A stretch of DNA of 10,214 nucleotides from Pseudomonadota bacterium (GTDB lineage Bacteria > Pseudomonadota > Gammaproteobacteria > Burkholderiales > Gallionellaceae). Below, one piece after another: positions 3-9,386 of this stretch. A program made the translations under genes and the position numbers. The notes beneath the pieces are model-generated. The model was not told the DNA's origin. It worked only from the letters and a program-made list of their open reading frames with translations, and did no database searches. Location: positions 1 through 10,214 of the forward strand of contig JAJZUH010000065.1 of the NCBI GenBank assembly GCA_021847165.1, given 5' to 3'. Numbering within the stretch: position 1 is the stretch's first letter; the number at the start of each line of letters is the position of its first letter.

Positions 3-194
3 ACCGACATCTGCCTGACCGGGTCCGAGAAGCTGGCGCGCATCCCGCTCAAGCAGTATTTCCCGCAACGCGGCTACGGCCTGGTGTTGCGCAAGGGTCG
101 CTTCCTGTCGCCGCAGGCACGGCGCTTTGTGGAGATACTGAACGAGGTCTACGGCCTGCAAACGGAGACTGCGGCAGTCACCGTTCGAGATTGA
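3..194 (+). CDS. LysR-type transcriptional regulator, C-terminal fragment (5' end outside window)
   Basis: An open frame enters from the left edge and encodes 63 residues ending ...TVRD before a TGA at 192-194. It contains the stretch QYFPQRGYGLVLRKGRFLSP, followed by QARRFVEIL. This resembles the end of the effector-binding domain of LysR-type regulators of the CysB/Cbl-like kind, where a strand of the form GLVLRKGRFLSP is followed by an amphipathic helix. The DNA-binding domain and most of the effector domain are off the window, so ligand and targets cannot be judged. The last four codons and the stop lie inside the 53-bp repeat at 178-230. The same bases on the other strand would encode the C-terminus of PpsR, so the gene was probably convergent with and overlapping ppsR before the insertion. 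The family call rests on a short C-terminal match only. Confidence 0.55.
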   Translation, partial: TDICLTGSEKLARIPLKQYFPQRGYGLVLRKGRFLSPQARRFVEILNEVYGLQTETAAVTVRD

Positions 195-230
195 GTTCCT
201 GCATCAGTTGCACCGCCAGTTCCTCGATGG
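178..230. repeat. 53-bp direct repeat, left copy
   Basis: This copy is identical base for base to 1663-1715. The flanking bases differ at once on both sides (g/c before, c/a after), so 53 bp is the exact extent. It contains the LysR stop codon. Read on the minus strand it encodes the final PpsR residues [16 protein letters not shown] plus the stop, without the rest of ppsR. It is therefore a duplicated ppsR 3' end at the left edge of the inserted segment. Confidence 0.97.
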
Positions 231-319
231 CGGAAAAAAGGTGCAGGAGTCGATTTCTTTCCGGGAAGTAGTTAAAGAAAGTTCCTTAGCAATATCCTGA
301 TTGAAATGAAAGGAATGGT

Positions 320-976
320 ATGAGTAGTAAATCAAAAGAAGGAGGAGGCTCCGGAAAGTTTGCATCGACACATTTATTGCTTTCCCAAAATATTACCTCT
401 GCCATATGGGGAATTTTTGTGATCGTTCTTTTCATGATTGAGGTTGCTGATTGGTACACCAATGACTCAGTAGCGGCCCTATTCTTTCTCGGCCTTCCGA
501 TATTATTTATTGCAGTGCGTTCCTTATTTTTTGGTATCGAACATGCGGTACAAAAAGAATATAAATCAGCAGCACTGAAAATCTTGATCGCTTTTATGCT
601 GACGTGTTCATTCGCACTTCCATCTGCGATCCTGTCAATCGATGGGAATCATTTTGACTATGCTCGTGATGTCGCATATTTCATGAAACTCACACTTAAT
701 GAAGAGCGTTATCTTCAAGAAATAGAGTTGACTCACCCGGATGACAGAGGGTATCGCTTTAAAAAATTTAGTTGGGGGATAAATTCGGCCGATGCTGGGG
801 ATTCGACAGATTTAATCTACGATGAGAGTGATGAGATGGCGTTACTGGATGGGCAACGTTCTCAAAAATGGTGGAAAAATGCAGGAGAGAATTCAAGAGA
901 TTTTTTTGGCGGCTGCAATTATGAGGTTCGAAAAATAAAATCTCACTTTTATGTGGTTCGCTTTATATGTGGATAA
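320..976 (+). CDS. Unrecognised three-helix membrane protein with a C-terminal soluble domain
   Basis: The 218-residue protein starts at ATG 320, preceded by AAGGA five bases upstream. A Ser/Lys/Gly-rich N-tail (1-15) precedes three predicted membrane helices at about residues 27-44, 50-72 and 84-106. A soluble, acidic C-terminal domain (107-218) follows, containing the stretch IYDESDEMALL and ending in an aromatic, Cys-containing strand (FYVVRFICG). I do not recognise a named family and assign no function. The gene is much more AT-rich than its neighbours (Lys AAA/AAT-rich codons, Phe TTT), which suggests recent acquisition. It lies alone between the left repeat and the toxin-antitoxin genes, with 125 bp before it. 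That leader holds only an A/T-rich 7-bp inverted repeat (TTTCTTT 254-260, AAAGAAA 274-280) and no clear promoter. Being an accessory or immunity-type membrane protein is conceivable but unsupported. Confidence 0.8.
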   Translation: MSSKSKEGGGSGKFASTHLLLSQNITSAIWGIFVIVLFMIEVADWYTNDSVAALFFLGLPILFIAVRSLFFGIEHAVQKEYKSAALKILIAFMLTCSFALPSAILSIDGNHFDYARDVAYFMKLTLNEERYLQEIELTHPDDRGYRFKKFSWGINSADAGDSTDLIYDESDEMALLDGQRSQKWWKNAGENSRDFFGGCNYEVRKIKSHFYVVRFICG

Positions 977-1095
977 ATTCCAATAACTAAAAGATTTTTA
1001 TAATACACAAATAAGGAGTAAGGCAAAACGAAAGGTGCCGGATAGTAACGGGCTATGCACACCGCTATCGATTCGAGATTACCTGGGTTAGACTT

Positions 1096-1110
1096 GCATC
1101 AATATGATGC
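1096..1110. promoter_or_regulatory. Palindromic operator candidate of the toxin-antitoxin operon
   Basis: A perfect 6-bp inverted repeat, GCATCA-ATA-TGATGC, lies 14 bases before the antitoxin start and just ahead of its Shine-Dalgarno. Type II toxin-antitoxin operons are commonly autorepressed through such a palindrome, so this is the best operator candidate. A TATAAT hexamer at 999-1004 could be the upstream -10 box, but no good -35 was found. The rest of 977-1095 shows an SD-like AAGGAG (1013-1018) with no credible gene behind it. Confidence 0.45.
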
Positions 1111-1124
1111 CTGGAAGGAATGCC

Positions 1125-1334
1125 ATGAATATCACGCTACAAAAAATACCCGTCGAAGAACGAATCAAGATGGTTGAAGATATTTGGGACAGCATTGCTG
1201 CCGATAAGAAAGTGCTGGCGCTTACCGCCGAACAAAGAGCGGAGCTTGACCGACGTTTGAATGCATACGAAGTTGACGGAAATCATGGCCGCTTGGCGAC
1301 GGACGTGATGGCAGACATCAGACGCAAACTATGA
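1125..1334 (+). CDS. Type II antitoxin, PF09720-like (putative addiction module component)
   Basis: The 69-residue protein has the family's hallmark N-terminal helix, VEERIKMVEDIWDSIAAD, followed by LTAEQRAELDRRLNAYE. This is the pattern of the small antitoxins annotated as addiction module proteins (PF09720/TIGR02574). Its role would be to bind and neutralise the adjacent toxin and probably repress the operon. I chose ATG 1125 over the upstream in-frame ATGs at 1104 and 1107 because GGAAGGA (1113-1119) sits at the right distance and the homologous core begins here. The upstream ATGs lie in the palindrome. The stop overlaps the toxin start as ATGA, so the two are translationally coupled. The C-terminal part (about 50-69), likely the toxin-wrapping tail, is less conserved. 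Confidence 0.85.
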   Translation: MNITLQKIPVEERIKMVEDIWDSIAADKKVLALTAEQRAELDRRLNAYEVDGNHGRLATDVMADIRRKL

Positions 1335-1627
1335 CGCTGGAGATTCGTCTCCGGCCGGAAGCTGCGCTTGATCTGGAGGATGCAGCGTTTTGGTACGAAG
1401 AACAAAGCACCGGGTTGGGCCACCAGTTCCTGGACGAAGCGATGGCAATTTTATCCGCGATTGCGGAAGCACCCTTGGCTCATCCCCTTGTTCATAGAAA
1501 TACCCGGCGCGCTTTGATGCGGCGCTTTCCTTTTGGCGTTTATTATCGAGTCGATTCTTTCGCCGTTGCGGTTGTGGCAATCATGCACGGCAGTCGAAAT
1601 CCGCAGCGCTGGAAAAATCGCGATTAG
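1331..1627 (+). CDS. ParE/RelE-superfamily toxin
   Basis: The 98-residue protein is normal in length for the family (PF05016-like). The N-terminal part (IRLRPEAALDLEDAAFWYEEQ) is the characteristic strand then long helix. The C-terminal signature RRFPFGVYYRV, then VVAIMHGSRNPQRW, is typical of toxins paired with PF09720-type antitoxins. ParE members poison DNA gyrase and RelE members cleave mRNA on ribosomes. The sequence alone does not decide, though the partner type and the closing RNPQRW pattern are usual in chromosomal ParE-like toxins. It overlaps the antitoxin by four bases (ATGA). The frame is intact with no truncation. Only 35 bp separate its stop from the end of convergent ppsR, and no terminator hairpin is visible there. 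Confidence 0.85.
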   Translation: MTLEIRLRPEAALDLEDAAFWYEEQSTGLGHQFLDEAMAILSAIAEAPLAHPLVHRNTRRALMRRFPFGVYYRVDSFAVAVVAIMHGSRNPQRWKNRD

Positions 1628-1662
1628 GGATATGCCGAATAAGTCCTGATGCGTCATCCGGC

Positions 1663-1715
1663 TCACCGTTCGAGATTGAGTTCCTGCATCAGTTGCACCG
1701 CCAGTTCCTCGATGG
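1663..1715. repeat. 53-bp direct repeat, right copy (3' end of ppsR)
   Basis: Identical to 178-230. Here it is continuous with the intact ppsR gene and supplies its last 16 sense codons and stop on the minus strand. On the plus strand it still carries the ACC GTT CGA GAT TGA ending of the LysR gene, now disconnected from that gene. This copy is part of the resident ppsR, and the left copy is the one joined to the LysR gene. Confidence 0.97.
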
Positions 1716-2534: not shown

Positions 2535-4622
2535 TCAGACCGGCCTGTCCTTGCCGTCGCTTTCCAGATAAGGATAGCGGACATGGTCGACCAGCTCCTG
2601 CATCTCCTTGCCCGGCGCAGCGGTCAGCAGGCTGCCGACGATGACGCCGACGAAGCCGGCCAGCATGCCGAACATGCCCGACGCAATCGGGCTGATGTCC
2701 CACCAGAGCGGTGCATTCACCCCGAAGAACGGATAGGTCATGTACATGTAATACATGCATACCGCCAGGCCGCCGATCATCCCCAGCACCGCTCCCGCCT
2801 TGTTGGCGCGCTTCCAGAACACCCCCAGCGCCAGCGCCGGGAAGAACGCGGAAGCGGCCAGCGAGAACGCCGCCCCCACCAGGAACAGGATGTGGCCGGG
2901 CTTGAGCGAGGTGATATAGGCGGCGAATACCGCCACCGCGAGCAGCAACGCCTTGGCGATGAACAGGCGCCGGCCGGTCGGGGCTTTCGGGTCGATCATC
3001 TTGTAGTACACGTCGTGCGACAGCGAATTGGAAATGGTCAGCATCAGTCCGTCCGCCGTGGACAGCGCAGCGGCAAGCCCTCCTGCCGCCACCAGGGCGG
3101 TGACCACATAGGGCAGGCCGGCGATCTCCGGCGTCGCCAGCACGATCAGGTCGCCGCCGATATTGACCTCGGCCAGCTGCACGATGCCATCGTGGTTGAT
3201 GTCGGTCACGCTCATCAGCGACTTGTCCACCGATGCCCAGGCAGACACCCAGCTCGGCAGTTCGGAGAAGCTGGAACCCACCAGCAGGGTGTACACGTCG
3301 TACTTGGCCAGCACCGCCAGCGCGGGCGCGGTGATGTACAGCAGGGAAATGAAGAACAGCGCCCAGAACACCGACTGGCGCGCTTCCCGCACCGTCGGGG
3401 TGGTGTAGAAACGCATCAGGATATGCGGCAGTGCAGCCGTGCCGACCATCAGGCACAGCACCAGCGCCAGGAAGTTCTTGCGTTTCTTGTCGCGCGTCGC
3501 CGGGTCCGGACCGGCAAACGGTTCGGCATGGGCCGCGATCGGGGCGGCCTTGACCCGGTCCGTTTCGGCGGCCGCGCGCCATGCCTTGCGCGCCGCGTCG
3601 ACATCTGCGGGGAATTCCGCCACGGCCTTGTCGGCGGCCGCGATGGCCTTGGGGTCCGCATCGCGCTTGCCTTTCAGTTCGGCGGCCGCCTTGACCAGCC
3701 GGCCTTTTTCTTCGGCCAGATAGGCAGCCCCGCCCGCCTCCAGCGCCTGCAATTGGTCTTCGGTTGTCTTCTCGCGCTGTTTCAGGATCGACCTCACCTC
3801 GGCTTCGCGCGCGCCGTCGGGCGTGGCCGGGTCATTCAGCGCCTGCTCGCGTGCCGTGACCTTCTGCAGCACGTAGCCGTAGGCGACCTGCGGCACCGGG
3901 TTGCCGGTATGCTTCACCGACAGCCAGATCACCGGGATCATGTAGGCCACGATCAGGATCACGTATTGCGCCACCTGCGTCCAGGTCACCGCGCGCATGC
4001 CGCCCAGGAACGAGCACACCAGGATGCTGCCCAGGCCGACGAACACACCGGTGCCGAAATCCAGCCCGGTGAAGCGGCTGGTGATCAGCCCGACACCGTA
4101 GATCTGTGCGATCACGTACGTGAACGAACACAGGATCGCCGCGAACACGCCGATGGTGCGCGGGATGCGGCCGCCGTAGCGCGCGCCGAGGAAATCGGGG
4201 ATGGTGTACTGGCCGAACTTGCGCAGGTACGGGGCCAGCAGCAAGGCCACCAGCACGAAGCCGCCGGTCCAGCCCAGCACGAAGGCCAGACCGTCGTAGC
4301 CCGACAGGTAGAGCGTGCCGGCCAGGCCGATGAAACTGGCGGCCGACATCCAGTCGGCACCCACCGCCATGCCGTTGAAGAACGCCGGCACGCGCCGGCC
4401 GGCCACATAATATTCGGCAACGTCGGAGGTTCTGGACAGGATGCCGATGCCGGCATACAGCAGCACCGTGGCGCCGAGGAAGATGTAGCCCAGCATCTTG
4501 TTGGGCATGCCCATCTGCTCGAAGATGGACAGCAAGACGACGAAGCCGATGAATCCGCCCGTGTAGAGCGCATAGTAACGTTTGAGTTGCGCGACGAAGC
4601 GCGATTGCCCGGGTGCCGCCAT
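2535..4622 (-). CDS. Sodium:solute symporter large subunit, VC_2705-like subfamily (ActP/PutP superfamily)
   Basis: The 695-residue inner-membrane symporter probably moves acetate or another small monocarboxylate with a cation. Family marks include EYYVAGRRVPAFFNGMAVGADWMSAASFIG (70-99), the amphipathic GGMRAVTWTQ loop (207-216), [10 protein letters not shown] (398-407), and the cation-site helix LSTADGLMLTISNSLSHDVYY (520-540). It is longer than ActP because of two loop insertions: an Ala/Lys/Glu-rich hydrophilic segment at about 250-380, and a loop at 474-485 (DINHDGIVQLAE) matching an EF-hand calcium loop. The start at ATG 4622 overlaps the small subunit's stop by one base (TGATG). GGAAGG (4632-4637 on the plus strand) lies nine bases upstream and homology begins here, so the longer open frame to 4856 is not used. 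Substrate is inferred, not shown. Confidence 0.9.
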   Translation of the reverse strand: MAAPGQSRFVAQLKRYYALYTGGFIGFVVLLSIFEQMGMPNKMLGYIFLGATVLLYAGIGILSRTSDVAEYYVAGRRVPAFFNGMAVGADWMSAASFIGLAGTLYLSGYDGLAFVLGWTGGFVLVALLLAPYLRKFGQYTIPDFLGARYGGRIPRTIGVFAAILCSFTYVIAQIYGVGLITSRFTGLDFGTGVFVGLGSILVCSFLGGMRAVTWTQVAQYVILIVAYMIPVIWLSVKHTGNPVPQVAYGYVLQKVTAREQALNDPATPDGAREAEVRSILKQREKTTEDQLQALEAGGAAYLAEEKGRLVKAAAELKGKRDADPKAIAAADKAVAEFPADVDAARKAWRAAAETDRVKAAPIAAHAEPFAGPDPATRDKKRKNFLALVLCLMVGTAALPHILMRFYTTPTVREARQSVFWALFFISLLYITAPALAVLAKYDVYTLLVGSSFSELPSWVSAWASVDKSLMSVTDINHDGIVQLAEVNIGGDLIVLATPEIAGLPYVVTALVAAGGLAAALSTADGLMLTISNSLSHDVYYKMIDPKAPTGRRLFIAKALLLAVAVFAAYITSLKPGHILFLVGAAFSLAASAFFPALALGVFWKRANKAGAVLGMIGGLAVCMYYMYMTYPFFGVNAPLWWDISPIASGMFGMLAGFVGVIVGSLLTAAPGKEMQELVDHVRYPYLESDGKDRPV

Positions 4623-4885
4623 CACCGCTCGCCTTCCTGCACGTCGTATTCGCGGTCCAGGCGCTCCATGCGCCAGGCGTAATAGCCGATCAGGATCACG
4701 TAGATCAGCAGTGCGCCCTGCGCCGCCATGAAGAACGAGAGCGGGAAGCCCAGAATGGTGATGGACTGCAGATCGCGGGCGAACCAGCCGACGACGAAAG
4801 TGGCCACGAACCAGATCGCCAGCAACATCCCGGTCAGGCGCAGGTTCTTCCGCCAATATTCCCTGTGCCTTTGCGTCAACTGCAT
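4622..4885 (-). CDS. Solute:sodium symporter small subunit (DUF4212)
   Basis: The 87-residue protein has two predicted membrane helices (about 16-36 and 50-71) and the typical N-terminal basic motif, HREYWRKNLRLTG (7-19), of DUF4212/TIGR03647. This family is found as the partner of VC_2705-type symporters and is taken to be a small subunit; a direct role in transport is not well defined. I start it at ATG 4885, where AGGGGGA precedes at five bases and the family's N-terminus begins. An upstream in-frame start at 4972 would add 29 non-family residues and run through the inverted repeat. Its stop overlaps the symporter start, so the two are coupled. It is the first gene of the minus-strand symporter-ppsR operon and is divergent from the two-component genes. 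Confidence 0.88.
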   Translation of the reverse strand: MQLTQRHREYWRKNLRLTGMLLAIWFVATFVVGWFARDLQSITILGFPLSFFMAAQGALLIYVILIGYYAWRMERLDREYDVQEGER

Positions 4886-4907
4886 GTTTCCCCCTGTTAA
4901 AACAAAT

Positions 4908-4934
4908 CCCTGCAGGTCAAGCCGGCCTGCAGGG
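4908..4934. promoter_or_regulatory. Perfect inverted repeat CCCTGCAGG-N9-CCTGCAGGG in the divergent promoter region
   Basis: The two 9-bp arms (4908-4916 and 4926-4934) are exact reverse complements. Each also contains the self-palindrome CCTGCAGG, so the site can equally be read as two copies of an 8-bp palindrome 17 bp apart. It ends one base before the predicted -35 of the two-component promoter and lies in the leader of the DUF4212 operon, 23 bases from its ATG. It could be an operator for a dimeric repressor or a leader hairpin. It has no U-tract, so a terminator is unlikely. Confidence 0.5.
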
Positions 4935-4935
4935 T

Positions 4936-4963
4936 TGGACAATTCACCTCTTCCACTTAGAAT
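4936..4963 (+). promoter_or_regulatory. Predicted sigma-70 promoter of the two-component operon
   Basis: TGGACA (4936-4941), 16 bp, TAGAAT (4958-4963): each box matches the consensus in five of six positions. Transcription would start near 4970 and give a leader of about 84 bases before the response regulator ATG. The upstream inverted repeat abuts the -35, and the predicted response-regulator site lies downstream, within the leader. Assignment is by eye only. Confidence 0.45.
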
Positions 4964-5018
4964 GTCTCTCAAGCAGGGCGGGTGCGATACCTGACATGCA
5001 CTCGCCCCATGGAAGGAA

Positions 5019-5050
5019 CTTAACCCTCAATCCTTACACGGTACTTACAC
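5019..5050 (-). promoter_or_regulatory. Predicted response-regulator binding site: three TTA half-sites, steps 14 and 11 bp
   Basis: On the plus strand: CTTAACC at 5019, CTTACAC at 5033, CTTACAC at 5044. The 11-bp step is the usual spacing of direct-repeat sites bound by OmpR/PhoB-family regulators, and CTTA-type half-sites are known for the PmrA branch. The same 14+11 pattern occurs at 9428-9458 upstream of yjcH-actP. Relative to both symporter operons the site has the same orientation, reading GTAAG...GTAAG toward the gene. It ends three bases before the response regulator ATG, so occupancy could also block that gene's leader. No convincing -10 for the DUF4212 operon was found just downstream on the minus strand. 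Confidence 0.5.
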
Positions 5051-5053
5051 CCA

Positions 5054-5728
5054 ATGCGCATCCTGATCGCCGAAGACGACGAAGTTCTGGCGGATGGTTT
5101 ATGCCACTCCATGCGCCAATCGGGTTATGCCGTCGACTGCGTCAAGGACGGTCTCGCCGCCAACCTGATCCTCAGCGGCGAGCAGCCTTTCGACCTCGTG
5201 ATACTCGATCTGGGCTTGCCCAAGGTGGACGGTTTCAGCGTGCTGCGCAGCCTGCGCGAGAACAACCGCCAGGTTCCCGTCATTATACTCACGGCCCGCG
5301 ATGCCGAAGGCGACCGGGTCAAAGGCCTGGATCTCGGCGCCGACGATTACATGATCAAGCCGTTCAGCCTGCCCGAACTCGAAGCCCGCGTGCGCGCGCT
5401 GATCCGGCGCGGGCAGTGCGGCGTGAATCCGGTCTATACCTGCGGCACGCTGACCTTCGACAGCGTCGGACGCCGTGCCGCGATCAACGGCACCACGCTG
5501 GAACTGACCACCCGCGAGATGAGCGTGCTGGAGGCGCTGATGCTGCGCACCGGCTGGGTGGTCAGCAAGGAACAATTGCTGGAACGGCTCTACAGCTATG
5601 CGGAAGAAGCCAGCAACAACGCCATCGAGGTCTACATCCATCGCTTGCGCAAGAAGATCGAGCCTGCCGGCGTCACCATACGCACCATACGCGGGCTGGG
5701 CTATGTCATCGGCAGCCTGCCTTCCTGA
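5054..5728 (+). CDS. OmpR-family response regulator (TctD/QseB/PmrA-like)
   Basis: The 224-residue DNA-binding response regulator is of standard length. The receiver domain (1-118) has the acidic pocket D8/D9, phospho-acceptor D52 in LVILDLGLP, T80 and K102 in IKPF. The C-terminal winged helix (about 127-220) shows the LTTREMSVLEALM and VEVYIHRLRKKI-like (here IEVYIHRLRKKI) segments and ends in IRGLGYVIG. It would bind as a dimer to direct-repeat sites and control transcription when phosphorylated by the kinase encoded 67 bp downstream. The start at ATG 5054 is fixed by the canonical MRILIAEDD N-terminus. No Shine-Dalgarno is visible before it; the bases are instead the CTTACAC repeats. It is divergent from the DUF4212-symporter operon, which it probably controls together with yjcH-actP (inference from matched sites). 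Confidence 0.93.
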   Translation: MRILIAEDDEVLADGLCHSMRQSGYAVDCVKDGLAANLILSGEQPFDLVILDLGLPKVDGFSVLRSLRENNRQVPVIILTARDAEGDRVKGLDLGADDYMIKPFSLPELEARVRALIRRGQCGVNPVYTCGTLTFDSVGRRAAINGTTLELTTREMSVLEALMLRTGWVVSKEQLLERLYSYAEEASNNAIEVYIHRLRKKIEPAGVTIRTIRGLGYVIGSLPS

Positions 5729-5795
5729 AGCGGATGGCGCGTTCGTTCCCGCAGTTGCAACACCGTCAAACCTGGCAAGGCCCATAAGGAGCGTC

Positions 5796-7190
5796 ATGGA
5801 AAACAACATCCGTTCCCTGCGCAGCTACCTGATGCAGCGCTTACTGATCTCCCTCTACCTGCTGTGGATCGTCAGCACCATCGTCGGCTATTTCGCCACC
5901 ATCAACTACGCCAACCAGCCCTACGACCTGGTATTGCTGCAACGCGCCAACGAGGTGGCGGCCGAACTCCAGCTGGGCAGCGGCCACGAGAAGCTGGATG
6001 TGATCCCCACCCTGCCCGACGGTTCGGATCTGGGCATGCCGGACCGGGTGCTCTATACCGTGACCGACAGCGAGGGCCGGAAGCTTGCCGGTAACGGCAA
6101 CACCCTGCGGCCGCTGTCCTACCGGCGCGACCGCAAGGGCCCGCTGTTCAGCAATGGCGAACGGGAAGGACAGAAGACGCGCATGGTCAGCCTGACCTTC
6201 CCGTCCCGCAACGGGGTGCTGCAACTGCATGTCTCCGAAACCACGCAGCAGCGCCAGGCACTGATACGCGGCATCCTGGCCAACATCGTCATCCCGGAAC
6301 TGCTGCTGACCCTGATCGCGCTGGCCGTGGTCTGGTATGGCCTGAAGCAGGGCTTGCGGCCGCTCGAACAATTGCGCCACGAAGTGGTGAACCGGCGCCG
6401 CAACGACCTGAGCCAGCTCGACGGCAGCAAGGCGCCCGCCGAGGTGCGTCCGCTGATCGATGCCGTCAACAACCTGCTGGAACGCCTGAAACAGGTGATG
6501 GCGGCACAACAGCGTTTCGTCGCCGACGCGGCGCACCAGTTGCGCACGCCGTTCGCCGGCCTGAAGACGCAATCCGAACTGGCCTTGCGCACGGATGACC
6601 CGGAACGTAAGCAGCATGCGCTCGAACACATCCACACCAGCACCCGGCATGGCATCCGTCTGGTCAACCAGTTGCTCGCACTGGCCCGCAACGAGCCGGA
6701 CGCGCAGCGCACCGACAATTTCGCGGTGCTCAACCTGAACCGCCTGGCACAGGAATGTACCGTCAACTGGGTGCAGATGGCGCTGGAAAAGGACATCGAC
6801 CTCGGCTACGAAGGCACCTCCACGATGATCGAAGTGCATGGCGATGCCGCCAGCCTGGCGGAGATGCTGAACAACCTGGTCGACAACGCGATCCGCTATA
6901 CCCAGTCCGGCGGCCATATCACCGTCGCCGTCCGGGCGACGCCGCAAGGCCCCGAATTGAGCGTGGAAGACAACGGTCCCGGCATCGAGCCGCAACACCG
7001 CGATCGCGTGTTCGAGAGGTTCTATCGCGTCCTCGGCAGCGGACAGAGCGGCAGCGGCCTCGGCCTTTCCATCGTCGCCGAAGTCGCCAAGCGCCACGGT
7101 GCCGAGGTGAAGCTGGGCGCCGGCAACGGCGATGCCGGCACGCGCATCAGCGTGCGCTTTCCGCTGCGCACGGCCCGCACCGCGAACTGA
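5796..7190 (+). CDS. Sensor histidine kinase (TctE-like, two-component partner)
   Basis: The 464-residue inner-membrane kinase starts at ATG 5796 behind TAAGGAG; the open frame extends further upstream but without a start signal. Domains in order: membrane helix 1 (about 14-34), a periplasmic sensor of the 2CSK_N/TctE type (about 40-155), membrane helix 2 (about 158-181), a HAMP-like linker, a dimerisation domain with phospho-acceptor H247 in FVADAAHQLRTP, and an ATPase domain with N364 in NNLVDNAIRY, D392 in EDNGPG and the glycine lid SGSGLGLS (418-425). All catalytic motifs are present. In TctD/TctE systems the kinase reports on carboxylates outside the cell. With carboxylate-type symporters on both sides, a related signal is likely, but the ligand is not readable from sequence. 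The gene ends ahead of the terminator at 7209-7242, which is oriented for the opposite strand. Confidence 0.92.
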   Translation: MENNIRSLRSYLMQRLLISLYLLWIVSTIVGYFATINYANQPYDLVLLQRANEVAAELQLGSGHEKLDVIPTLPDGSDLGMPDRVLYTVTDSEGRKLAGNGNTLRPLSYRRDRKGPLFSNGEREGQKTRMVSLTFPSRNGVLQLHVSETTQQRQALIRGILANIVIPELLLTLIALAVVWYGLKQGLRPLEQLRHEVVNRRRNDLSQLDGSKAPAEVRPLIDAVNNLLERLKQVMAAQQRFVADAAHQLRTPFAGLKTQSELALRTDDPERKQHALEHIHTSTRHGIRLVNQLLALARNEPDAQRTDNFAVLNLNRLAQECTVNWVQMALEKDIDLGYEGTSTMIEVHGDAASLAEMLNNLVDNAIRYTQSGGHITVAVRATPQGPELSVEDNGPGIEPQHRDRVFERFYRVLGSGQSGSGLGLSIVAEVAKRHGAEVKLGAGNGDAGTRISVRFPLRTARTAN

Positions 7191-7208
7191 GGCGAGCCGG
7201 AACAGCGC

Positions 7209-7242
7209 AAATAAAAAGGCCACCGGGTCGCCCCGGTGGCCT
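7209..7242 (-). terminator. Rho-independent terminator of yjcH-actP
   Basis: There is a perfect 11-bp stem, AGGCCACCGGG (7217-7227) with CCCGGTGGCCT (7232-7242), and a four-base loop. On the minus strand it is followed by UUUUAUUU, placing it 23 bp after the actP stop. On the plus strand no U-tract follows, so it would end the kinase transcript only weakly, if at all. Confidence 0.92.
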
Positions 7243-7265
7243 GTGCGGATGAAGCCCGCTGCCGC

Positions 7266-9017
7266 TTAGTGCGAAGCGCCCACCTCGGCACCCAGGCCGG
7301 TCTCGGCACGGATCATCTGTGCGTCGAACGCAGCCCGTTCTTTCTTCGCGCTCTCGCTGTTGTCGGTGATCGAGGCGATATAGGCAACGATCAGCACGGT
7401 CGGCAACACGACGAAGGTCGGGAAGTCATACGGGAAGATGGCCGGGCCCATGGCAAGCACCTTGGTCCAGACCGTCGGGCCGATGATCAGCAGACCGATG
7501 GAGCCGAACACGCCGGTATAGCCGCCGAGCACCGCACCGCGTGTGGTGAGGCCGCGCCAGAAGATCGACAGGACCAGGATCGGGAAGTTGGTACAGGCCG
7601 CGATCGAGAAGGTCAGCGCCACGATGTAGGCGACGTTCTGCTTCTCGAAGGCGATACCCAGGATCACGGCGAGTACGCCCAGTCCGATCACCATCATCTT
7701 CGACATCCACACTTCCTGCTTCTCGGTCGCGGTACCCTTCATGATCACGTTCGCATAGATGTCATGCGACAGCGCCGAGGCGCCCGCCAGCGTCAGGCCC
7801 GATACCACGGCCAGGATGGTGGCGAAAGCGACCGCGGCGATGAAACCGAGGAAGAAGTCGCCGCCGAGCGCGTGCGACAGATAGACCGCCGGCATGCTGC
7901 CGCCGCCCTTGAGCACGAGCACGCTCTTGGTCAGGTCAGCCACATACTCGGGGTTGTTGGCCACGAGGACGATGGCGCCGAAACCGATGATGAAGGTCAG
8001 GATGTAGAAGAAGCCGATGAAGCAGGTTCCATACAGCACCGATTTGCGTGCGGCCTTGGAGTCGGTGACGGTGAAGAAGCGCATCAGGATGTGCGGCAAT
8101 CCGGCCGTACCGAACATCAGCGTCAGGCCCAGGGAGATGGACTCGATCGGATTGGCCTTCGCACCGATGGGCACCACGGACTTCATGATATCCAGGTGTT
8201 TCGGGTGCGCCGCGACAGCGTCATTGAACAGCTTGGCGAAACTGAAGTTCTCGTGTGCCATCACGCCGATCGCCATCATGGTGGCGCCGCCCAGCAGCAG
8301 GCCGGCCTTGATGATCTGCACCCAGGTCGTGGCCTTCATGCCGCCGAAGGTGACGTAGGTGATGATCAGCGCGCCGACCACCACGATCGATTCGCGATAG
8401 GAGATTTGCGGCACCAGCGTATGCAGCAGCTGTCCGGCACCGACGGCCTGGCCGATCAGGTACCAGATGACCACGATCAGGGAGCTGATCGCCGCCATGG
8501 TGCGCACCGGGCCCTGCTTGAGGCGGAACGAGACGACGTCGGCATAGGTGAACTTGCCGAGGTTGCGCAGGCGCTCCGCGATCAGGAACAGGATGATCGG
8601 CCAGCCCACCAGCCAGCCCACCGAGAACAGCAGACCGTAGAAGCCGTTGAAATACACCAGCGCGGCGATACCGAGGAACGAGGCAGCCGACATGTAGTCG
8701 CCGGCGATGGCCATGCCGTTCTGGAAGCCGGTGATGCCGCGTCCGGCGGCGTAGAAGTCGCTCGCCGTCTTGGTGCGGGTCGCGGCCCAGTAGGTGATGA
8801 CCAGCGTCACCGCCACGAACAGGATGAACATCACGATGGCATGCCAGTTGAGGGGCACTTCCGCAGGTGCGGCGGCCGGCGCAACGGCTGAAGCCGATGC
8901 CACGGCGGATGCCGTCGCCACCGCGGAGACTGCCGCATCGGCAGCCTGAGCCAGGCCGGAAGCGAACACCCCGATCATGGCCAGCAAAGCAAAGAAGGTA
9001 TTTTTGAATATTTTCAT
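7266..9017 (-). CDS. actP: Acetate permease ActP (cation/acetate symporter)
   Basis: The 583-residue sodium:solute-family symporter is slightly longer than the roughly 550-residue E. coli ActP. It starts with a cleavable signal peptide (1-25, ending AQA before ADA), as ActP does. A low-complexity Ala/Ser/Val linker follows (about 26-54), which explains the extra length. Conserved segments: [31 protein letters not shown] (86-116), [33 protein letters not shown], and [19 protein letters not shown]. It would import acetate, and possibly glycolate or other short monocarboxylates, across the inner membrane. Its ATG overlaps the DUF485 gene's stop by four bases (ATGA). No acetyl-CoA synthetase gene accompanies it here. 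It shares its superfamily with the symporter at 2535-4622 but is clearly a different subfamily. Confidence 0.94.
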
Positions 9018-9325
9018 TTGGAAGCCTCGCGCACGATTTCACTGACGATAGGATCGAAGGTCTGGTTCGCCTTGTAGACGTATACCCCCGTGAGCACGCA
9101 GGATGCCAGGATCACACCGACCCCCATGAGCATGCCGAGCGGGATCACGCTGTCGGCTGCGATAGGCTGGGTGAGGACATCTGGGGCAAACGCGATCATC
9201 AGGGTAAAACCGAAATACATCACGCAAACCAGGGCTGACAGTGTCCAGGCAAGCGTATCGCGCTGCCTGACCAACTGCAGGTATTTCGGATTGCTCTGTA
9301 TCTTGCTTGCAATCAATTCGGACAT
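9014..9325 (-). CDS. yjcH: DUF485 family inner-membrane protein, ActP partner (YjcH-like)
   Basis: The 103-residue protein has two predicted helices (about 25-47 and 61-84). The N-terminal [19 protein letters not shown] is followed by a [15 protein letters not shown] segment, as in YjcH/DUF485. The family almost always precedes actP and is co-expressed with it; its exact function is not established. I start at ATG 9325, with GGAGG upstream at a relaxed distance and the family N-terminus beginning here. The open frame to 9370 would add 15 unrelated residues. The overlap with actP indicates translational coupling. Upstream on this strand lie the inverted repeat at 9387-9407 and the predicted response-regulator site at 9428-9458. 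Confidence 0.9.
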
Positions 9326-9386
9326 GACTTCTTCCCTCCGTAAACGACAATTATCAAAAATATCCGGCAAAACAATCGACTAACTC

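Follow-up and report, generated by a model that had tools for sequence, protein, structure and literature searches.

Toxin-antitoxin modules in Gallionellaceae are often flanked by a host gene and a displaced copy of its 3' end

Among the closest described systems, taken here from the available portions of the source reports, is one in which E. coli given linear DNA incorporates it by ligation and a single crossing-over, with duplications of 109-950 bp in 14 sequenced clones (PMC3240628). Minimal mobile elements of Neisseria (following the definition cited in PMC3082526) are differing whole-gene cassettes located between two conserved genes. In the displacement of type VI effectors in Vibrio, which gives rise to arrays of immunity genes, each new homology-anchored insertion shifts the older pieces further out, and one-sided recombination was proposed for these arrays by the authors (PMC5361080). 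Small variable segments of E. coli and other genomes are small insertions without mobile-element genes, 10-18% of which are flanked by direct repeats, most of them under 30 bp, that were interpreted as deletion sites (PMC2884548). The movement of chromosomal toxin-antitoxin (TA) modules without plasmids, transposons or integrons is poorly understood.

The window (by which is meant the whole analysed stretch of 10,214 nucleotides) carries, between the 3' ends of a LysR-type regulator gene and of ppsR, an insert with the following surroundings and content:

3..194, + strand: 3' end of the LysR-type regulator gene, an open frame whose 5' part lies past the contig edge
178..194, no strand: tail-to-tail overlap of LysR and ppsR, 17 bp, arranged as in the empty site
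178..230, - strand: displaced ppsR tail (the scar) with the LysR stop retained, 53/53 identical to 1663-1715
231..1662, no strand: the insert, 1,432 bp, missing from 11 of the 20 junctions read in relatives
320..976, + strand: orphan 218-aa ORF without a Pfam match
1125..1334, + strand: predicted antitoxin gene, Unstab_antitox (PF09720), 49.9 bits (frame from 1104) against a cut-off of 23.3
1331..1627, + strand: predicted toxin gene, ParE family (PF05016), 33.1 bits against a cut-off of 23
1663..1715, - strand: tail of the working ppsR gene and second repeat copy, 53/53 identity
1663..2478, - strand: ppsR, Kinase-PPPase family (PF03618, 270 bits), the anchor gene

The perfect 53-bp direct repeat reported in an earlier note on this DNA is present at 178-230 and 1663-1715 (53/53 identical, spacing 1485), about 6e-25 such pairs being expected by chance in 10 kb, and no degenerate extension above shuffles is found on either side of it. 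The repeat contains the stop codon of LysR (192-194, + strand) as well as that of ppsR (178-180 or 1663-1665, - strand), the stretch common to both genes is the 17 bp of 178-194, and the boundary of the scar falls exactly at the ppsR stop codon. The description of a 1,432-bp island (231-1662) that leaves both genes intact also holds, both flanking stops being retained. The LysR-type fragment of the window scores 25.3 bits with PF03466, below the cut-off of 28, and the gene is full-length in relatives. Elsewhere in the window (2535-9370), two similar symporter-like genes, each adjoined by a small membrane-protein ORF and sharing a 63-bp stretch of 79% identity, stand on either side of genes for a response regulator and a histidine kinase (names obtained from reading the ORFs, with no family scan).

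The antitoxin and toxin genes of the insert overlap by ATGA (4 bp), the antitoxin start at 1125 having been picked by alignment to homologues from three relatives (G030, G146 and G021) within a frame that is open from 1104. By family, with both scores above their cut-offs, and by arrangement, these adjacent PF09720 and PF05016 genes are a predicted type II TA module, as had been suggested earlier. A word-based search through 5.8 billion proteins gave two homologues of the 218-aa ORF other than itself (at 72% and 52% identity); the 398 other genomes in the order sample contain none. Matches to the cassette elsewhere in the family comprise three that cover the TA genes only, at 73-75% identity (in the same three relatives), and three short ones of 38-47 bases (in G147, in G092 and a second one in G030). 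Plasmid and phage records gave no match to the cassette or its donor, and neither donor DNA nor a circle carrying the cassette was found in the family genomes or in these records.

In line with the earlier note, Pfam identifies no recombinase among the three ORFs of the insert, and no transposase; among the 25 longest inverted pairs listed, none has both arms at the insert ends. The length of the repeat varies between sites, being 53 bp in the window and 76 bp in a relative (G011). A transposon insertion is not supported, given that there is no transposase, no terminal inverted repeats were found among those 25 pairs and there is no short target duplication of fixed length. Likewise not supported is a site-specific integrative element, given that the insert has no recombinase of its own and that the scars of eight anchors (described below) have no common core of 6-9 letters beyond shuffles.

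A ppsR match is present in 82 of 158 genomes of the family, and the junction was read mainly in the 30 best ppsR matches. Counted were the 20 genomes in which LysR and ppsR (or its tail) are close on one contig; genomes with LysR beyond the DNA read (G005, G030, G176 and G147 among others) were left out. Eleven of these 20 junctions are empty (G004, G019, G013, G028, G023, G014 and G027 and, judged by eye, G178, G175, G078 and G076), that of G178 having a 2-bp gap and no overlap of LysR and ppsR. The other nine are filled with differing cargo, which includes TA genes in five: the orphan 218-aa ORF and the Unstab_antitox/ParE pair in the genome of the window (G000), MazE/PIN in G011, PIN and a weak Phd match in G171, MazE/PIN and HigB with an HTH gene in the 4.6 kb of G177, and, in G080, a weak RelE match and HTH, followed by an IS200-type transposase and then the ppsR tail only. 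The remaining four hold a transposase-like (G077), a dehydrogenase-like (G174) and a sulfatase-like (G003) gene, all by eye, and one ORF of no family (G007). In the G080 locus (L104, 3050-6126, reverse strand) the ppsR tail consists of the last 126 bp only, while an intact ppsR is located on a separate contig; the two 3' ends share 90% identity across 108 bp.

The nearest relative found, G004, whose ppsR protein is 98.5% identical to that of the window and whose DNA is 94% identical to the right flank of the window over 2,857 bp, has LysR and ppsR overlapping and a single copy of the 53 bp (52/53). The earlier note had named an empty site with one copy of the repeat, and other cargo at the same junction, as what an insertion should leave among relatives; both are seen, as is the tail-to-tail overlap of 17 bp that it had supposed for the state before insertion, and the arrangement with two repeats is by no means common to all relatives. 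Insertion at the LysR-ppsR junction is thus demonstrated by the empty and filled sites. In a mosaic test, which compared LysR with ppsR divergence, the gap of 6.1 points between G000 and G004 lies within the range of the other pairs (-9.4 to 7.3).

The filled junction of G011 has the order intact LysR, 76-bp copy of the ppsR tail, TA genes, 129-bp LysR piece and ppsR. The LysR piece is 94.6% identical to the LysR of the same genome, with seven differences of which five are synonymous (1.8 expected, p 0.009), and it looks like the gene of another lineage and not like a decayed local copy, judging from this pattern of substitutions.

TA loci of the family were sampled as 40 TA windows (24 PIN and 16 ParE) from 10 relatives, reaching about 6 kb to each side where the contig allowed. 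They come from a list of 73 PIN and 54 ParE places in 12 genomes and are not random, long contigs having been favoured and ppsR places excluded; two of them overlap by 3.75 kb. Direct repeats enclose 9 of the 40 TA genes, as compared with 62 of 1,612 other positions of the same TA windows; in 80 contigs of the window's own genome, 25 of 3,701 positions are so enclosed. With flanks of 1.5 kb, repeats surround 7 of 40 TA genes from the family and 5 of 30 PIN loci from the order sample; among 30 acetyltransferases (order) and 30 glycosyltransferases (family) there are none, 0/60 in all (p 0.0004 together, 0.016 and 0.026 apart).

Most of the repeats that flank TA genes in the family are gene tails. 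When the last 150 nt of each ORF of at least 150 aa was scanned, the 3' tail was found repeated for 9 of 340 ORFs in the TA windows (10 were found, and L249 was removed since its tail is by eye a dispersed repeat), in each case downstream and never upstream (9/9, p 0.004). Such repeats were seen for 0 of 464 ORFs in the 80 contigs of the own genome (p 0.0004), for 0 of 306 in 40 ppsR-centred loci and for 0 of 171 in the 60 transferase loci, the latter being short (about 3.3 kb) and a weaker test for tails; over all control ORFs the comparison is 9/340 with 0/941 (p 6e-6). The ppsR-centred control (L056-L099) excludes the known positive of G011 (L070), three duplicate or short loci (L057, L079 and L097) and a tandem microrepeat (L071). 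Repeats of the first 150 nt were found for 2 of 340 ORFs in the TA windows (9 versus 2 for 3' and 5' ends, p 0.065), and in the controls for 1/464 (a scaffold artefact), 1/306 and 2/171, with 2/68 at the PIN loci of the order. Outside the family, none of 68 ORFs at the 30 PIN loci of the order sample (1.5-kb flanks) has a repeated tail. The repeats at five PIN loci of other families were considered as gene tails and rejected, being by eye intergenic repeats or a terminator, and so were those of L248 and L251 within the family. At one locus outside the family (L278, 1427-2453), a VapBC-like pair has a copy of a terminator-like hairpin on each side, the hairpin coming after a gene which by eye is thioredoxin reductase-like.

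In a small and chosen TA sample from one family, made up mostly of metagenome assemblies, TA modules of Gallionellaceae are therefore often seen with a host gene on one side and, on the other, a displaced copy of that gene's 3' end. The nine anchors are trpC, thiC (truncated by the contig end), DUF2238 (in two species), a 5'-nucleotidase, a sigma-54 activator, a cyclase-like gene and mutS (in two species), the latter named from sequence without a family scan; the G005 copy of mutS matches residues 2-865 of the G004 protein. Three of the nine come from G171 (350 contigs, 80% complete), a TA-rich assembly with 20 PIN and 18 ParE matches, compared with one of each in the window's own assembly. 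Between gene and scar are found VapBC-type pairs (L221 and L222), a VapBC-type pair with DUF433/DUF5615 (L232), Phd and ParDE (L225), MazE/ParE (L241), ParE with other genes (L253) and PIN with a weak DUF2281 match (L256); at L240 the order is a non-TA stretch, a first mutS scar, TA genes and a second mutS scar. One interval of the nine lacks TA genes (L223, an ORF6N gene), and their presence in the others is partly built in, since the TA windows were centred on TA genes; at L225 the two TA pairs behind trpC differ from the gene used to choose the window. Two successive scars are present at thiC (G011), DUF2238 (G005 and G011) and mutS (G005). The VapC at DUF2238 is 92% identical between G005 and G011, one cassette type being present at this gene in two species.

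Of 15 scars, those of the window and of G011 included, 13 end at most 20 nt from the stop codon of the anchor; the trpC scar extends 56 nt beyond it, and the second mutS scar was placed at the stop by BLAST, the end alignment giving no call. Their starts lie 35-288 nt ahead of the gene end, and no word of 6-9 letters is common to the scars of eight anchors in excess of shuffles. The gene overlap as a target is a peculiarity of the LysR-ppsR locus alone. Leaving out the window scar, which has zero differences, 14 scars hold 55 synonymous and 50 non-synonymous differences, with 23.4 synonymous ones expected (maximum of 2,000 simulations, 39). The synonymous excess is significant in four of the 14, namely trpC (7:2, synonymous to non-synonymous), 5'-nucleotidase (10:2), sigma-54 activator (17:2) and the second thiC scar, where synonymous changes are above expectation yet non-synonymous ones are in the majority (10:22). 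It is absent from the mutS, DUF2238 and cyclase scars, and the ppsR scar of G011 gives 2:0 (p 0.08), or 3:0 (p 0.017) with the stop counted. Such ratios indicate that at several loci each tail had evolved in a functioning gene of its own lineage before the two came together; an origin of one repeat copy in another lineage is supported at G011, trpC, 5'-nucleotidase and the sigma-54 activator, and not at mutS or DUF2238. In the window, where the copies are identical, a donor tail and a local duplication would look alike.

Considering these observations, we find it rather probable that the TA cassette entered at the ppsR 3' end through recombination with incoming DNA in which the cassette was accompanied by a homologous ppsR tail. 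The incoming DNA would have consisted of the ppsR tail of a relative joined to the TA cassette; ppsR would have acquired its complete tail (or a mosaic one) from this DNA, and the resident tail, still fused to LysR, would have been displaced beyond the cassette to become the 53-bp scar. We infer the route itself, which may have been a single crossover with a circularised fragment or a one-sided, homology-assisted insertion, and which would require neither integrase nor transposase. The insert is flanked by a direct repeat of host gene sequence with the whole gene on one side, as is a feature of a single-crossover product. In our reading, gene 3' ends would be targeted because the incoming DNA brings a replacement tail, not because they offer a recombinase site, and TA addiction would help to prevent loss of the cassette by recombination between the flanking repeats.

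The other explanations differ in weight. An assembly artefact is an unlikely source of the repeat, and we give it only the slightest chance, even though the contigs are short (210 for 1.85 Mb) and a repeat-flanked N gap occurs elsewhere in the assembly (L158, G000:C20, 5518-5871), where a 127-bp sequence on each side of 100 N is a scaffolding artefact that mimics a direct repeat. That gap, one of ten, suggests an assembly word length of 127, longer than 53; the identical 218-aa protein is listed on three contigs, the longest of 901,123 bp, and the similar architecture of G011 sits on a 622-kb contig. Long direct repeats in the own genome (60 contigs, 474 kb) are limited to a CRISPR-like array, the scaffold-gap artefact and three pairs of 20-23 bp; the array (L189, G000:C51, 5394-6486) has repeats of 37-40 bp, and its contig also holds a PIN gene at 164-532. 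A tandem duplication of the LysR-ppsR end within one lineage, later filled or overwritten by TA DNA, would explain why pieces of both genes are retained in G011, but it is highly improbable, as two events would be required per locus and five of the seven differences in the G011 LysR piece are synonymous.

More weight is due to an illegitimate insertion, in which TA DNA was taken up at the gene overlap through a staggered break or a switch of template, with copying of the 53-bp target, though we regard this too as unlikely. Selection would keep such an event, because only a duplication that spans the 17-bp overlap leaves both genes whole; the copies in the window are identical with no sign of a donor tail, and the mutS and DUF2238 scars have no synonymous excess. 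The mostly synonymous differences at G011, trpC, 5'-nucleotidase and the sigma-54 activator are, however, unlike neutral decay. Gene 3' ends are usual att sites, and a site-specific integration there, with the recombinase acting in trans or since lost and the 53 bp being att, would fit the direct repeats around the insert and the several cargos at one junction. This is improbable, the insert having no recombinase gene and the tails (35-288 nt, of unrelated anchors and with no common 6-9-letter word beyond shuffles) diverging in a coding-type manner. The likeness to att-type integration drawn in the earlier note is not supported; the unrelated anchors, variable tails, lack of a motif and mostly synonymous differences at several loci fit recombination with the DNA of a relative better than an att site or a transposon target duplication.

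The recombination reading can be taken further, in a tentative and rather doubtful form, to one in which TA modules of Gallionellaceae are integrase-free cassette arrays, each cassette being a TA module plus one host gene tail. Recombination between the flanking tails would free a circle with one tail, which would guide its re-entry at the same gene in any cell having that gene; new cassettes would enter beside the gene, moving earlier ones further away from it, as the ladders at thiC, DUF2238 and mutS suggest, and addiction would keep the repeats from deleting the cassette. If this were true, the tail of a housekeeping gene would play the part that att sites play in integrons. Each arrival would be readable from the gene-tail scar it left, which names the anchor gene and the direction and order of insertion, and whose divergence can reveal whether a relative was the source of the DNA. 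The scars also make the idea that addiction protects repeat-flanked DNA directly testable.

No description of gene-tail scars at TA modules was found in the open-access literature searched, as far as the available text of these reports extends, and the comparisons that follow are with the available portions of the same reports. In the small variable segments, neither gene tails nor a link to TA modules appears, unlike here (PMC2884548). The LysR-ppsR junction fits the minimal mobile elements of Neisseria, in that different cassettes are found between two conserved genes (11 junctions empty, 9 filled) and that entry, which in those elements is by homologous recombination, would be so here; displaced gene tails are not mentioned for those elements (PMC3082526), and here homology to one gene would suffice and would leave a scar. 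The displaced piece in Vibrio is part of the toxin system itself (PMC5361080), whereas at the present loci an unrelated host gene has its tail displaced. The closest likeness in outcome is to circularised linear DNA and homology-facilitated illegitimate recombination, where foreign DNA joins the chromosome via homology to one gene end and duplicates a piece of that gene (PMC3240628). That work concerns a laboratory assay in E. coli, and the pattern described here is a natural one, which is located at TA modules and sometimes forms ladders of two scars.
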